Shown: positions 10,310-17,468 of the stretch, in pieces
Layout: each line of letters starts with the position of its first letter
How positions within the stretch are numbered: the first letter of the stretch is position 1
From: Bradyrhizobium sp. STM 3843
GTDB lineage: Bacteria; Pseudomonadota; Alphaproteobacteria; Rhizobiales; Xanthobacteraceae
Direction: 5' to 3'
Assembly: GCF_000239815.1 (NCBI RefSeq)
Contig: NZ_CAFK01000045.1
Location: 1-64,000 of the forward strand
Length of the DNA: 64,000 nt
Translations under genes and position numbers: made by a program
The notes under the pieces: model-generated
What the model was told of the DNA's origin: nothing
What the model saw: the letters and a program-made list of their open reading frames with translations, nothing else
Databases searched by the model: none

Positions 10310-11287
10310 TCACGGCCAGTCGGCGAAATCGAGCGACGGCCGCAGCCGTCCGCTGCGCGCCCGCGCCGCCATGTTGCGGCGCCACGCGCCCGGCGCCTCG
10401 CCGGTGTGCTTGGTGAAGAAGCGGCTGAAATAGGCGGTGTCCTTGAAGCCGAGCGCAAAGGCGATCTGCTTGACGGTCGCACTGCTGCTCTCGAGCCGTC
10501 GCGCCGCCTCCTGCAGGATGCGCTGCTGGATCAGCGCGCTCGGCGAGCGCTGCAAGGCGCGGCTGCACAGCGAATGCAGCCGGTCCGAGGTGACGCCGAG
10601 CAGCTGCGCATAATCGGCGACACGCAATTGCTGTTGGTAACGCTCCTCCACCAGCCTGCGAAAGCGGCCGAGGATGTCGGCGCTGTTGCCCGGTGCGGCG
10701 CCATCGGCCGTCTCGGCAAACAGCCGCCAGAAGCGCAGCACGCAAAGCGAGAGCTCCGCTGACAGGATCGAGGCGCTGGCGCCGCGCGCCGGCGCAGCCA
10801 GCTCGGCCGCGATCGACGCGATCGAGCGCGCAAGTGCCGCGGCCAGATCCGCTTCGACCGGAAAGGCGAGCATGCCGGTCACGCCGGCGAGGTCCAGATA
10901 GGCTGCTTCCGCCGAAGGCGGCAAATAGCGGTGCCAACTATCCGCGCGCAGCCGCAACAGATGCGCGCGCGCGCCGGCCGCGATTTCGAGCTGGTCGGCG
11001 CTTCCAGCCGGCAACCAGACCAGCGACGGCCCGGACCATGCGGTGACCTCGCCGTCCCCATGTGCCGCCGCCGCGCCGGAGGTCAGCGATATCAGGTGGA
11101 TGCAGGGTCGTACCGCCAGCGAATTCAGGGCCCATTGCCGCGCGACGAAATGCGAGCCGACCACCTCGGCACCGACGGGATGAGCTGCATCGGGTGCAGG
11201 CACGGGCCCGGCGCTCCGGCTCCCCGCCAGCGCGGGACGCCGGGACCGGGCGCCAGATGAGTGCATCTTTTCGCCGGATCCGTCCAT
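10310..11287 (-). CDS. AraC-family transcriptional regulator
   Basis: Regulator of about 325 residues. The C-terminal 100 residues form the double helix-turn-helix, with VKQIAFALGFKDTAYFSRFF as the second recognition unit and KHTGEAPGAWRR after it. The N-terminal part is a cupin-like ligand domain (SGPSLVWLPAGSADQLEI). The frame is open further upstream, but that part lacks family features and overlaps the promoter of the divergent ABC operon. ATG at 11287 or at 11266 is more likely. Divergent placement suggests control of the ABC transporter/aldehyde dehydrogenase operon. The inducer may be an aromatic aldehyde or acid; this is inference. Confidence 0.88.
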   Translation of the reverse strand: MDGSGEKMHSSGARSRRPALAGSRSAGPVPAPDAAHPVGAEVVGSHFVARQWALNSLAVRPCIHLISLTSGAAAAHGDGEVTAWSGPSLVWLPAGSADQLEIAAGARAHLLRLRADSWHRYLPPSAEAAYLDLAGVTGMLAFPVEADLAAALARSIASIAAELAAPARGASASILSAELSLCVLRFWRLFAETADGAAPGNSADILGRFRRLVEERYQQQLRVADYAQLLGVTSDRLHSLCSRALQRSPSALIQQRILQEAARRLESSSATVKQIAFALGFKDTAYFSRFFTKHTGEAPGAWRRNMAARARSGRLRPSLDFADWP

Positions 11288-11291
11288 TGCG

Positions 11292-11318
11292 CCAAGGAAC
11301 CCGACAGTGCTTCCTTGG
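11292..11318. promoter_or_regulatory. Perfect inverted repeat in the AraC/ABC divergent promoter
   Basis: Arms ccaaggaa (11292-11299) and ttccttgg (11311-11318) are separated by 11 bases. The site lies a few bases upstream of the AraC start and about 115 bases upstream of the binding-protein start, a good position for an operator serving one or both. Its regulator is not known. Confidence 0.5.
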
Positions 11319-11431
11319 TCAAGCCCGGACAGCCGCAAACAACAATCGCGGACAAAAAGCCCGGGCCAAGAGGAAACGTCACATCGGCACGCCGCCGAAC
11401 AATCCGGCGCGCCCCAGGGAGGAGGCTCGAC

Positions 11432-12654
11432 ATGGTTTCGACACAGCGTCGGACATGGCTGCGCATCGCCAGCCTGACAGTATTGGCCGCGGCACTGGGG
11501 GCCTTTGCGTCCCCTGCCGCCGCGCAGGACAAGATCCGCATCGGCTATGCGATCTCGAAAACCGGACCGTATGCCGGCGGCGCGGGGATCACGACCTTGC
11601 CCAACTATCAGCTCTGGGTGAAGGACGTGAACGCGGCGGGCGGAATCAAGCTCGGCGACAAGCGGCTGCCGATCGAGGTCGTCGAGTATGACGACCGCAG
11701 CTCGTCGGAAGAGGCGGTGAAGGCGATTGAACGCCTCGCCAATCAGGACAAGGTCGATTTCATTCTGCCGCCGTGGGGCACCGGCCTCAATCTCGCGGTC
11801 GGCCCGACCTTGAACCGGCTCGGCTACCCGCATCTCGCGGTCACCTCGGTGACCGACAAGGCGCCTGAGCTCGCCAAGCGCTGGGCCAATGCCAGCTTCT
11901 GGCTCGGCACCTCGGCGCAGATCTCGCAAGGGCTGGCCGATCTGCTCGGCAAACTGAAAAGCGAGGGCAAGATCGGCGGCACCGTCGCCATGGTCAGCGT
12001 GGCCGACCAGTTCGGCATCGAGCTCGCCGCCGCCGGCCGCGAGGCTTTCAAGAAGGCCGGTCTGACCGTCGCCTATGACAAGACCTACCCGCTCGGCTCG
12101 CAGGACATCCAGCCGCTGCTCAAGGATGCGATCGCCTCCAATGCCGACACCTTCATCGCCTTCAGCTATCCGCCGGATACGCTGGCGCTGACCGAGCAGG
12201 CGCAGTCTTTTAGAAATTCAATCCGAAGGTGTTCTATGTCGGCGTCGGCACCGCGTTTCCGCTGTTCAAGGCCAAGTTCGGCGGCAACGCCGACGGCGTG
12301 CTCGGGATCGGCGGCTGGAATGCGGAGTCGCCGCCGCTGAAGGACTATCTCGCCCGCCACAAGGCCGCGACCGGCCAGGAGCCGGATCGCTGGGCCAGCC
12401 CGATCACCTATGCGAGCCTCGAGGTGCTGCAGCAGGCGATCGAGAAGGTCGGCAAGGTCGACCGCACCGCGATTGCCAAGGAAATCCGCGACGGCACGTT
12501 CGAGACGATCATCGGCAAGGTGAAGCTGAAGGACGGGCTGTTGCAGGAGGTCTGGGCGGTCGGCCAATGGCAGAACGGCGAGTTCTATGGGCTCGCGCCG
12601 GCGACGCTGGCGGGCGCACGCCCGGCCGTCGTGCCGAAGCCCGAGTGGAAGTAG
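11432..12654 (+). pseudogene. ABC transporter substrate-binding protein, broken by a frameshift
   Basis: Periplasmic binding protein of the branched-chain amino acid (LivJ/HAAT) family. The start follows GGGAGGAGG and encodes a clear signal peptide (RIASLTVLAAALGAF, cleavage near SPAAAQD). The mature part begins DKIRIGYAISKTGPYAGGAG. The frame is coherent to about 12208, then runs out of register: the expected continuation KFNPKVFYVGVGTAF through VVPKPEWK is read in another frame from 12214 to 12654, with TAG at 12211 in that frame. A two-base insertion (tcttttagaaa against an expected tctttgaaa) would explain it. Either the gene is disrupted or the sequence has an error. Without the shift the protein would be about 407 residues, normal for the family. 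It is first in the ABC operon. Confidence 0.85.
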
Positions 12655-12716: not shown

Positions 12717-13592
12717 ATGTTGCTGTTCGACATTCTCCTGCCTGGCCTCGTGCTTGGCGGCATGTATGTGCTCATCGCGCTCGGGCTGACGCTGCAATAT
12801 GGCGTCGCGCGCATCATGAACCTCTCCTATGGCGAGGCGCTGGTGGCGGCGAGCTTTGCGGCGTTGTCGCTCTACACCGGGCTGTCGCTGAGCCCGCTGC
12901 TCGCCCTGCTGCTCGCCGTGCCGATTGCAGCGGTGCTGAACTGGCTGCTCTACCGGCTGCTGCTGGTCCGGCTGGTCCGCCGCAACAAGGATGCGGGCGC
13001 CCAGGAGGTCGACAGCATCCTCGTCACCTTCGGCGTGCTGTTCGTGATCCAGGGACTGATGCTGGTCGCGTTCGGCGGGCAGTATTACAGCTACAGCTAT
13101 CTCTCGATCCCGGTCGTCATTCTCGGCTCGACCCTGGCGGTGAACCGGCTGGTCGCGCTGGCCTTCGCGGCGGTGATCGGCACCGCCGTCTATCTCGCGC
13201 TGACGCGCACGCGGCTCGGCACGGCGGTGCGCGCGGTCGCGGTCGATGCCAGAGCCGCGAGCCTGGTCGGCATCGATGTCGCCGCGCTGGCAGGGTTCGC
13301 CTTCGCCTTTGGCGGCGGACTCGTCGCCGCTGGCGGCGTGCTGGTCAGCATGTTCCTGACCTTCAACGCCGCGATGGGCGTCGTCTTCACCATGAAGGCG
13401 CTGGTGGTGGTGATCATGGGCGGCGTCGGCAATGTCATGGGCGCGCTGATCGCAGGCCTGCTGCTCGGCATCGTCGAGACCGCGGTGGCGCGGCTGGTCG
13501 ATCCCGGCCTAACCCTGGCTGCGACCTATACGCTGTTTCTCGCGGTGCTGCTGGTGCGGCCGACCGGCCTGTTCGGAAAGGCCACGTCGTGA
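12717..13592 (+). CDS. Branched-chain amino acid-type ABC permease, LivH family
   Basis: Inner-membrane permease of 291 residues, mostly hydrophobic with about eight helices. The N-terminus LFDILLPGLVLGGMYVLIAL and the patterns YGVARIMNLSYGEALV and GGVGNVMGALIAGLLLGIVE are typical of LivH. It would pair with the LivM-type permease encoded next, whose GTG start overlaps this gene's TGA (GTGA). The transported compound is not stated by sequence, but the operon ends in an aromatic-aldehyde dehydrogenase, so an aromatic acid or similar solute is more likely than leucine. Confidence 0.92.
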   Translation: MLLFDILLPGLVLGGMYVLIALGLTLQYGVARIMNLSYGEALVAASFAALSLYTGLSLSPLLALLLAVPIAAVLNWLLYRLLLVRLVRRNKDAGAQEVDSILVTFGVLFVIQGLMLVAFGGQYYSYSYLSIPVVILGSTLAVNRLVALAFAAVIGTAVYLALTRTRLGTAVRAVAVDARAASLVGIDVAALAGFAFAFGGGLVAAGGVLVSMFLTFNAAMGVVFTMKALVVVIMGGVGNVMGALIAGLLLGIVETAVARLVDPGLTLAATYTLFLAVLLVRPTGLFGKATS

Positions 13593-15256
13593 CCGTCCGC
13601 AACGCCATCCTCATGATCATCGCCCTGCTCCTCGGCGCCGCGATCGTTGCCGTCCCGCTCTACGCCAACGGCTATTATCTCGCGCTCGGAATCAGCATTC
13701 TCTATTTCACGGTGCTGGCCACCGCCTGGGCGATGTTCTCCGGCCCCACCCGCTACATTTCGCTCGCCACCGCCGCATTCTTCGGCATCGGCGCCTACAG
13801 CGCCGCGATCACGGCGGAGACCCTGTCCTGGCCGCTGCAGCTCTTGGTCGCGGCCGGCGCGGGCGGCGTGGTCGCCGCGATCACGGGGTTGTCGACCTTG
13901 CGGCTCTCCGGCATCTATTTCGTGATCTTTTCCTTCGGCCTCGCCGAGCTGATCCGGCAGCTCGTGATCTGGTACGAGGTCAACGTCCATAAGTCGGTCG
14001 GCCGCTATCTGTTCAGCGACATCACCCAGGAGGTACTGTATTGGCAGCTCCTCGGGCTCGCCGTGGTCGTGCTGCTCGCGGGTTATGCGCTGAACCGCTC
14101 GCGCTACGGATTGGCGCTGCGCGCGATCGGCGCCGACGAGACCGCGGCGCGCCATGCCGGCATCAACGCGACGCTGGTGAAGCTCGGCGTGTTCGTGGCG
14201 AGCGCAGTATTCATGTCGGTCGCCGGCGCGATGATGGCGCCGCGCTGGACCTATATCGATCCGGCGATCGCCTTCAACCCGATGATCTCGTTCCAGGTCG
14301 TCATCATGGCGCTGCTCGGCGGCGCCACTCATCTGCTCGGCCCGCTGCTCGGTGTCGTGCCGCTGGTGCTGCTGTTCGAGGTGCTGACGGCGGCGCTGCC
14401 GAACCATTTCAGCATCGTGCTCGGCCTGGTCTTCGTCGCCATCGTGATGGCGCTGCCGCAAGGCGTGATCGGACTGATCGCACCACTGTTGGCGCGCCCG
14501 CATGCCAAGCCCGTGGCGATGCCCGCCATCGCCGAAAGCCCGCTGCTTTCGGTCGAACGCGTGAGCAAATCCTTCGGCGGCTTGCGTGCGGTCGAGGGCG
14601 TCAGCCTCACCGTTGCACAGGGCGAGATCCTCGGCATCATCGGTCCGAACGGATCGGGCAAGACCACCCTGCTCAACATGCTCTCGGGCGCGCTCATTCC
14701 CACCACCGGCACGATCCGGCTTGGCGACGCCGTTATCAGCGGCCTTCCGGCGCATAAAATCGCGCGGCTCGGCCTCGCCCGCACCTTTCAGCTCGTGCGC
14801 GTGATGCCGGAACTGTCGATCGCCGAAAACGTCGCCGCGGCGGCGCTGTTCCGTGCCGGCGCAAGCGCAGGCAGCGAGACGGAGATCCACGACCTGCTGG
14901 AGCTGGTCGGGCTTGGCCGGCGGTCGGATACGCCCGCAGGCGAGCTGACCTATATCGATCAGAAGCGGCTGGAGCTTGCGCGGGCGCTGGCGCTCGAGCC
15001 CCGCATCCTCCTGCTCGACGAATGGCTGGCCGGGCTCAATCCGAGCGAGCTCGAGACCGGCATCGCGCTGATCGCGCGCTTGCGCGATCGCGGACTGACC
15101 ATCGTCATGGTGGAGCATGTGATGGATGCGATCCGCGCGCTCTGCAATCGCTGCCTGGTGATGAGCGCGGGAAAGGTGATCGCCAGCGGCACGCCCGAGG
15201 TGGTGCTCGCCGATCGCACTGTCATCACGGCCTATCTCGGAGAGGCCGATGCTTGA
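13589..15256 (+). CDS. Fused ABC permease-ATPase (LivM-LivG)
   Basis: Protein of 555 residues joining a LivM-type permease (about 1-310) to a LivG-type ATPase (about 320-555). The ATPase has Walker A GPNGSGKTT (352-360) and Walker B ILLLDEW (Asp477, Glu478). The signature is LTYIDQKR at 453-460: the glycine normally found in the LivG form (LSYGxQ) is replaced by Ile456. LivM-LivG fusions occur in rhizobia. GTG at 13589 overlaps the LivH stop and was chosen for translational coupling; ATG at 13613 is an alternative that would shorten the first membrane segment. Its 3' end overlaps the next gene by 8 bases. Confidence 0.9.
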   Translation: MTVRNAILMIIALLLGAAIVAVPLYANGYYLALGISILYFTVLATAWAMFSGPTRYISLATAAFFGIGAYSAAITAETLSWPLQLLVAAGAGGVVAAITGLSTLRLSGIYFVIFSFGLAELIRQLVIWYEVNVHKSVGRYLFSDITQEVLYWQLLGLAVVVLLAGYALNRSRYGLALRAIGADETAARHAGINATLVKLGVFVASAVFMSVAGAMMAPRWTYIDPAIAFNPMISFQVVIMALLGGATHLLGPLLGVVPLVLLFEVLTAALPNHFSIVLGLVFVAIVMALPQGVIGLIAPLLARPHAKPVAMPAIAESPLLSVERVSKSFGGLRAVEGVSLTVAQGEILGIIGPNGSGKTTLLNMLSGALIPTTGTIRLGDAVISGLPAHKIARLGLARTFQLVRVMPELSIAENVAAAALFRAGASAGSETEIHDLLELVGLGRRSDTPAGELTYIDQKRLELARALALEPRILLLDEWLAGLNPSELETGIALIARLRDRGLTIVMVEHVMDAIRALCNRCLVMSAGKVIASGTPEVVLADRTVITAYLGEADA

Positions 15257-17456
15257 GGTCTCGCGTCTGTCGCATTCCTACGGCAAGCATCGGGCGCTCG
15301 CCGATATCGCGCTTCAGGTCGGGCGCGGCGAGATCATCGCTATTCTCGGCGCCAACGGCGCCGGCAAGTCGACCTTGCTGCAGGCCATCACCGGACTGAT
15401 CAGGCCGGCGACAGGGTCGATCATCCGGTTCGAAGGCAAAGATATTGCCGGCCTCCTGCCGCACCTGATCGTCGAGCGCGGCATAGCACTGGTGCCGGAA
15501 GGGCGTGGCGTGTTCGGCGAGCTGACGGTCGCCGAGAACCTGCAGCTCGGTGCCTATCCTCCGCGTGCCCGCGAACGCGAAGCCGAGCAGCTCGCCCATG
15601 TGCTGCAACTGTTTCCGCGGCTCGCCGAGCGCCTGGGCCAGGCGGTGCGGACAATGAGCGGCGGCGAGCAGCAGATGGTGGCGATCGGCCGGGCGCTGAT
15701 GTCCAATCCGGCGCTGCTGCTGCTCGACGAGCCGTCGCTGGGGCTGTCGCCGCTGCTGAGCCGCGAGGTGTTTCGCGCGCTGCAACGCATCCGTGCCGAT
15801 GGTGTCGCCATTCTCCTGGTCGAGCAGAATGCCCGCGCGAGCCTCGACATCGCCGACCGGGTCTATCTGATCGAATCCGGGCGCAACGCCGGGCACGGCG
15901 ATGCGGCCGACATGAAGAACAATCCCGATATCCAGCGCGCCTATCTCGGCAAGGCGCGCGCGCCGTCCCCGATATCCAAATCCTCTGAGACGATGGAGCG
16001 ACCTATGAATGCGATCAACCTTTTGATCGGCGGCAAGGACCAGGCGGCAGCCAACCAGCGCACCTATCAGCGTCTCAATCCGATCAGCGGCGAGACCGCG
16101 AGCATCGTTGCGGCGGCCTCGGTCGAGGACGCGTTGCGCGCGGCCGACGCGGCCGCCGCCGCCTTCCCGGCCTGGTCTCAGCTTGCGCCCGGCGAGCGCC
16201 GGAGGCGGCTCAGCGCCGCAGCCGATGCGCTGGCGCGCAATGCCGCCGAATTCACCGCACTCATGGTGGCCGAGACCGGGGCGACCGCCGGCTGGGCCGG
16301 CTTCAACGTGCATCTCGCCGAGGCCATGCTGCGCGAAGCGGCTGCGATGACGACGCAGATCGCGGGTGAGGTGATCCCGACCGATGTGCCCGACAATCTC
16401 GCGCTTGCCTTCCGGCAGCCGGTCGGCGTGGTGCTCGGCATCGCGCCCTGGAACGCGCCGGTCATTCTCGGTGTCCGCGCAGTGGCGATGCCGCTCGCCT
16501 GCGGCAACACCGTCGTGCTCAAGGCGTCCGAGATGAGCCCTGGCGTGCACCGCCTGATCGGCAGCTGCCTGGCGGAAGCCGGCCTTGGCGACGGGGTGGT
16601 CAATGTCGTCACCAATGCCCCGGAGGATGCGCAAGCCGTGGTCGAGGCGCTGATCGCGCACCCCGCGGTGCGCCGGGTCAACTTCACCGGCTCGACCCGC
16701 GTCGGCCGGCTGATTGCGCTCGCCTGCGCCAAGCATCTGAAGCGCTGTTTGCTCGAGCTCGGGGGCAAGGCCCCGCTCGTCATTCTCGACGACGCCGATC
16801 TCGATGCGGCGGTCGATGCGGCGGCCTTCGGCGCCTTCATGAACCAGGGCCAGATCTGCATGTCGACCGAGCGCATCGTGGTCGACGACAAGGTGGCGGA
16901 TGCGTTCGTCGCGAAGTTCGCGGCCAAGGCCAACAGCCTGCCCTACGGCGATCCCCGCCAGGGCAACGTCGTGCTGGGCTCGCTGGTGTCGGGCGCGGCC
17001 TGCGACCGGGTCGGCGCGCTGATCGAAGACGCGCTTGCCAAGGGCGCGGTGCTCGCCGCCGGCGGTCGCGGCAGCGGCACGATCATGCCGGCAACAATCG
17101 TCGATCGCGTCACGCCGGCGATGCGTATCTATGGTGAGGAGAGCTTTGGCCCCGTGGTCACGGTGGTACGCGTCAGCGGCGTCGAGGAGGCCGTGCGCGT
17201 CGCCAACGACACCGAATATGGCCTCTCCTCCGCCGTGTTCGGCCGCGATATCGCGCGCGCGCTCGGCGTCGCCAAGCGGATCGAGGCCGGCATCTGCCAT
17301 ATCAATGCGCCGACCGTGCATGACGAGCCGCAGGTGCCGTTCGGCGGCGTCAAGGCCTCGGGCTATGGCCGCTTCGGCGGCAAGGCGGCCATCGACGAAT
17401 TCACCGAACTGCGCTGGATCACGGTGCAGACCGGCCCGCGCCATTATCCGTTCTGA
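15249..17456 (+). CDS. In-frame fusion: LivF-type ABC ATPase and aromatic-aldehyde dehydrogenase
   Basis: One open frame of 735 codons covers two unrelated enzymes. Residues 1 to about 237 are a LivF ATPase, with Walker A GANGAGKST (34-42), signature MSGGEQQM, Walker B LLLLDEPSLGL and switch LLVEQN. From about residue 250 to the end is a complete NAD(P)-dependent aldehyde dehydrogenase of the vanillin/salicylaldehyde group, with Glu503 in LELGGK, the nucleophile Cys537 in NQGQICMS and the subgroup motif GICHINAPTVHDEPQ. No stop separates them. An internal ATG at 16005, preceded by GGAGCG, could start a free 483-residue dehydrogenase, so separate translation is possible. The fusion would tie uptake to aldehyde oxidation. 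A recent loss of a stop codon between two genes is the simplest origin. Confidence 0.88.
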   Translation: MLEVSRLSHSYGKHRALADIALQVGRGEIIAILGANGAGKSTLLQAITGLIRPATGSIIRFEGKDIAGLLPHLIVERGIALVPEGRGVFGELTVAENLQLGAYPPRAREREAEQLAHVLQLFPRLAERLGQAVRTMSGGEQQMVAIGRALMSNPALLLLDEPSLGLSPLLSREVFRALQRIRADGVAILLVEQNARASLDIADRVYLIESGRNAGHGDAADMKNNPDIQRAYLGKARAPSPISKSSETMERPMNAINLLIGGKDQAAANQRTYQRLNPISGETASIVAAASVEDALRAADAAAAAFPAWSQLAPGERRRRLSAAADALARNAAEFTALMVAETGATAGWAGFNVHLAEAMLREAAAMTTQIAGEVIPTDVPDNLALAFRQPVGVVLGIAPWNAPVILGVRAVAMPLACGNTVVLKASEMSPGVHRLIGSCLAEAGLGDGVVNVVTNAPEDAQAVVEALIAHPAVRRVNFTGSTRVGRLIALACAKHLKRCLLELGGKAPLVILDDADLDAAVDAAAFGAFMNQGQICMSTERIVVDDKVADAFVAKFAAKANSLPYGDPRQGNVVLGSLVSGAACDRVGALIEDALAKGAVLAAGGRGSGTIMPATIVDRVTPAMRIYGEESFGPVVTVVRVSGVEEAVRVANDTEYGLSSAVFGRDIARALGVAKRIEAGICHINAPTVHDEPQVPFGGVKASGYGRFGGKAAIDEFTELRWITVQTGPRHYPF

Positions 17457-17468
17457 GAAGCGCTGCAT

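Follow-up and report, generated by a model that had tools for sequence, protein, structure and literature searches.

A single reading frame joining the importer ATPase LivF to an aldehyde dehydrogenase in Bradyrhizobium sp. STM 3843 and its recurrence in other bacteria

The importer operon and its fused frame

The window examined here, meaning the whole stretch of 64,000 nucleotides analysed from Bradyrhizobium sp. STM 3843, comes from contig 305 of an 8.43 Mb draft genome of 349 contigs with an estimated completeness of 99.99%. Its forward strand carries a set of importer genes, beginning with a gene for a substrate-binding protein (11432-12654) whose two halves lie in different frames because of 2 extra nucleotides at about 12208-12214 relative to four aligned relatives; in the relatives checked the gene is a single frame. 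It is followed by a LivH permease (12717-13592, BPD_transp_2) and by a LivM permease and LivG ATPase encoded in one frame (13590-15256, start approximate; the 889-aa ORF matches BPD_transp_2, ABC_tran and BCA_ABC_TP_C), the stop codon of which overlaps the ATG of the LivF-type gene. On the opposite strand a divergent ORF (10310-11929) ends in an AraC-type regulator with a C-terminal HTH, detected by a match to HTH_18 and by one to NCBIfam HpaA that falls below the cut-off; the true start of this regulator is probably further downstream within the ORF. The next gene downstream of the operon is GlgX, also on the opposite strand. LivM and LivG share one frame in the window, but Hoeflea (L214) and Ensifer (L323) have a gene for each.

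The LivF-type gene opens a frame at 15249-17456 (+) that runs for 735 codons with no internal stop. Its first 235 residues (15249-15953) constitute a LivF-type ABC ATPase, in which PF00005 (ABC_tran) covers residues 18-163 and the Walker A, signature (MSGGE) and Walker B motifs stand at residues 34, 136 and 156, and which shows 79-82% identity to the LivF of its nearest relatives. The ATPase motifs and the position as the last ATPase behind LivH, LivM and LivG are those of LivF, the single departure being that the stop codon usually found soon after the conserved (A)YLG end is lacking: the LivF part terminates at YLGK (residue 235) and 500 more codons follow in frame, this being the fusion itself. 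A linker of 17 codons, ARAPSPISKSSETMERP (51 nt, 15954-16004), continues the frame shared by the two parts without a stop, a TGA at 15986-15988 being out of frame. Within this region a Shine-Dalgarno-like core, GGAG (15995-15998), precedes by 6 nt an internal ATG at 16005, which might serve as the own start of the aldehyde dehydrogenase (ALDH) domain (16005-17456). This domain is complete, PF00171 (Aldedh) spanning residues 268-724 with 495 bits over profile positions 4-461 of 461, and its catalytic Asn402, Glu503 and Cys537 are all in place and invariant. The initial claim of the sequence-only reading, that two complete enzymes share one 735-codon frame, is thus borne out, both domains being full and furnished with their catalytic residues.

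AlphaFold models of 27 fused sequences show two domains joined by a disordered linker (mean pLDDT 75, pTM 0.50, with low confidence at the ALDH end), and in the window the linker is predicted to be disordered, with pLDDT below 50 at residues 235-251. Decay of the fused copy was also considered and found unsupported, as its dN/dS values (about 0.22 for LivF and 0.08 for ALDH) are like those of separate relatives. An antisense open frame of 747 codons crosses the whole fusion (15225-17468, -), and is probably a by-product of high GC content and codon use.

Distribution and phylogeny of fused and separate loci

DNA and protein searches across approximately 900 different genomes, followed by extraction of the junctions, yielded 114 distinct loci in which LivF stands directly ahead of an ALDH of this type. 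The two genes form one open frame in 31 of these, including L151, which is truncated by a contig end, and are separate in the remaining 83, meaning that LivF either stops ahead of the ALDH start or lies in another phase (gap phases 35/25/23). A stop between the two parts in all relatives, which according to the sequence-only reading would point to a strain-specific loss or a sequencing error, is therefore not what the junctions show. All carriers found in three genera are fused (8/8 in g20, 4/4 in g78 and 3/3 in g50), and fused loci also occur in the single-contig genomes G078, G098, G136, G435, G633 and G002, the last of these belonging to the window's own genus and carrying the same fusion. 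Among named genomes the fusion is found in Hyphomicrobium sp. CS1BSMeth3, a Hyphomicrobiaceae MAG, a Phreatobacter sp., a Pseudorhodoplanes MAG, two Hoeflea genomes (including Hoeflea alexandrii) and a Rhodocyclales MAG, and the named Bradyrhizobium, Tardiphaga, Microvirga, Shinella and Thalassospira loci are all separate. The longest linker seen, with 198 residues, is that of the fused locus L131 (401-3145, -).

Unfused livF-ALDH operons, which occur in Bradyrhizobium, Tardiphaga, Microvirga, Shinella, Ensifer and others, resemble the fused ones in their gene order (binding protein, livH, livM, livG, livF, ALDH), in the families involved and in an ALDH ATG preceded by a Shine-Dalgarno site. 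In the unfused operons, however, livF stops approximately 0-25 residues past the conserved end of its product and no later than the ALDH start, and all three phases occur. We found no report of a LivF-ALDH fusion in the open-access literature searched, and the open-access literature on transporter-enzyme fusions, aromatic-aldehyde importers and UPF0261-ABC proteins offered nothing relevant. The nearest analogue is the LivF-UPF0261 protein of Bradyrhizobium (PF00005-PF06792), where a cytosolic domain is likewise attached to the C-terminus of LivF via a Pro/Ala-rich linker; there, however, the partner is not an ALDH, and the genus carries that fusion regularly, in contrast to the intermittent occurrence of LivF-ALDH. 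LivM-LivG fusions of importers of the branched-chain-amino-acid type, one of which lies beside LivF-ALDH in the window, similarly place two subunits in a single frame, but both of their partners are transporter parts, whereas the partner of LivF here is a catabolic enzyme.

In maximum-likelihood trees built from LivF and ALDH with the linker excluded (114 rows, then 138 rows), the fused label changes 9 and 11 times respectively, with at least 8 changes forced by well-supported branches, although these counts do not separate gain from loss. As at least 8-9 changes are needed on the gene tree, the fusion is recurrent. One clade of 16 loci, including those of Phreatobacter and Pseudorhodoplanes, is entirely fused (SH-aLRT 80, rising to 99 with named genomes added); it adjoins L224 of an Acetobacteraceae MAG, in which 849 nt lie between LivF and ALDH. 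The window itself groups with the separate loci L040 and L110 (support 92-93), so that the fused state is not common to it and its closest relatives, and is nested in a clade of 26 loci of which 24 are separate and to which a fused Hyphomicrobium pair is sister. Because it sits among separate relatives, the window's own fusion would be either young or an old state retained amid repeated splits. Four further fusions, at L012, L052, L055 and L151, are similarly isolated. The gene tree taken as a whole indicates a fusion that is long kept in some lineages and recent in the window's strain.

Chance read-through, linker constraint and the internal start

An explanation that requires no benefit from the join is neutral read-through: the livF stop, being little needed, drifts off, a short GC-rich spacer is in phase one time in three, and the functional ALDH is the free form initiated internally. 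Such an origin has some force, in that 22% of spacers from the separate loci come out open and in phase when shuffled; at this rate a single fusion is weak evidence, and young, lone fusions among separate relatives, such as those of the window, L012, L052, L055 and L151, need no selection. The constant retention of the internal ALDH start also fits it. Against it stands the behaviour of other LivF genes in the window's genome, which almost never run on: 28 of the 30 LivF-like loci reach a stop no more than 21 codons past the LivF end, the two exceptions being the LivF-ALDH gene and the LivF-UPF0261 fusion. The latter (L297:1471-3684; contig 60:10359-) is an open frame in almost every related genome carrying it, on which basis LivF evidently tolerates a large C-terminal domain, and the own-genome UPF0261 copy has its C-terminal half in a different frame from its N-terminal half. 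An 844-codon frame holding two Aldedh matches (contig 306:75403-77550, -) was also observed in this genome, and is possibly a tandem ALDH protein.

The old 16-locus clade also speaks against neutral read-through. Its linkers range from 63 to 594 nt (21-198 residues), and 11 length changes among them include 0 changes of phase, while in the separate loci 34 of 50 length changes alter the phase (Fisher p = 3e-5), a contrast that is weakened, though not removed, by the clade having been selected for being fused. Furthermore, four pairs of closely related fused loci show 25.5 synonymous linker substitutions in the LivF/ALDH frame where 12.9 would be expected (p = 4e-5; the pair L066/L067 was left out as too diverged). 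This excess is confined to the shared frame, the other two frames having none, and the differences per codon position are 11/8/25. Long linkers are rich in Pro, Ala, Ser and Thr, as interdomain linkers usually are. Both the phase and the synonymous tests draw on small numbers and on lineages other than the window's, and the patterns that they reveal indicate that in those other lineages the linker is translated in the shared frame and under constraint there, as in a true gene fusion. The pattern across genomes is not accounted for by chance, and we regard neutral read-through as an unlikely explanation of it, though one that merits serious consideration. For the window's own strain, a recent loss of the livF stop without any benefit may well account for the frame.

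The internal start is preserved throughout: every one of the 31 fused loci has an ATG where the ALDH begins, and in each of them this codon is preceded, at a fitting distance, by a Shine-Dalgarno match of 4 nt or more, which 16.5% of background windows contain. The earlier suggestion that the ATG at 16005, behind GGAGCG, permits separate production of the dehydrogenase agrees well with this retention. Since nothing else obvious would preserve an ATG and a Shine-Dalgarno site in old fusions, free ALDH is probably also made from the internal start. The same observation bears on the idea that the fusion serves mainly to fix dose, co-translation supplying one LivF per ALDH with no membrane placement or channelling. 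The single operon, the overlapping upstream starts and the LivM-LivG gene, likewise in a single frame, accord with such a role, but a retained internal start would undo the fixed ratio, and we consider it improbable. An error of sequencing or assembly could also have produced the window's fused frame, the real spacer then having a different base count and livF a stop nearby (e.g. the TGA at 15986-15988); this we consider the least likely of the alternatives. There are two more frame breaks in this draft, at about 12210 in the window and in the UPF0261 gene on contig 60, and in the close relative L110 the homologous LivF can be aligned up to about 15986 (the comparison used 14 stretches from three relatives and covered the operon), but the genome is nearly complete, its other LivF paralogues and most of its listed ALDH genes look intact, and the same fusion occurs in other genomes, including G002.

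Substrate class and a proposed role for the fusion

Among PDB entries the ALDH half is closest to salicylaldehyde dehydrogenase (6qhn), vanillin dehydrogenase (9ihb) and NahF (4jz6), far above all others; by nearest sequence it is of the salicylaldehyde/vanillin dehydrogenase type. NahF (4jz6, 6qhn) and vanillin dehydrogenase (9ihb) match it over the full enzyme with 555-623 bits and share its catalytic residues, differing in that they are stand-alone enzymes and that the substrate class of the window's ALDH is a prediction from sequence. No NCBIfam equivalog was found for this half, the best match, HpaE, reaching 362 bits where the cut-off is 638. A related ALDH in Rhizobium acidisoli adjoins a coniferyl-alcohol dehydrogenase and a similar importer. 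An operon on an Ensifer plasmid (L323:9358-13958) encodes, in addition to the importer and the ALDH, an SDR oxidoreductase, a TPP enzyme and a member of the 2,4'-dihydroxyacetophenone dioxygenase family, and is a candidate for an aromatic ketone/aldehyde pathway; a TPP enzyme gene is also close to the Phreatobacter locus. Given these additional Ensifer genes, the aldehyde may arise inside the cell from an imported precursor, and the pathway probably proceeds from uptake of an aromatic compound via generation of an aldehyde to its oxidation to the acid.

Based on these observations we favour, with reasonable confidence, a genuine in-frame fusion of livF, the gene for the last importer ATPase, with the following aromatic-aldehyde dehydrogenase gene, which would provide both tethered and free ALDH. 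Ribosomes finishing LivF would continue into a LivF-linker-ALDH protein, which would bring ALDH subunits to the cytoplasmic side of the LivH/LivM/LivG importer, and initiation at the internal ATG would supply free ALDH that completes the ALDH oligomer. An aromatic aldehyde, whether taken up as such or produced immediately from an imported precursor, would then be converted to the acid, trapping the substrate and removing a reactive compound. More tentatively, the locus may represent a repeatedly evolved two-product gene, which yields a permanently ALDH-bearing importer ATPase along with free ALDH, such that oligomers sit on the importer and aromatics are oxidised at the membrane. The repeated origin of the fusion and its apparent long retention in some bacteria suggest that a tie between enzyme and importer can be useful, although a benefit of the tethering itself is something that we infer. 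The use of the fusion in the window's strain is uncertain, given its recent formation and a binding protein that looks broken.

If the proposal is right, the motor of an importer is joined to the enzyme acting on its substrate, which would be a direct coupling of transport and metabolism. The retained internal start would furnish a natural case of one gene giving rise to tethered and free forms of an enzyme. Close relatives carry the operon in both states, fused and unfused, so that simple allele swaps could test whether the join brings a benefit.
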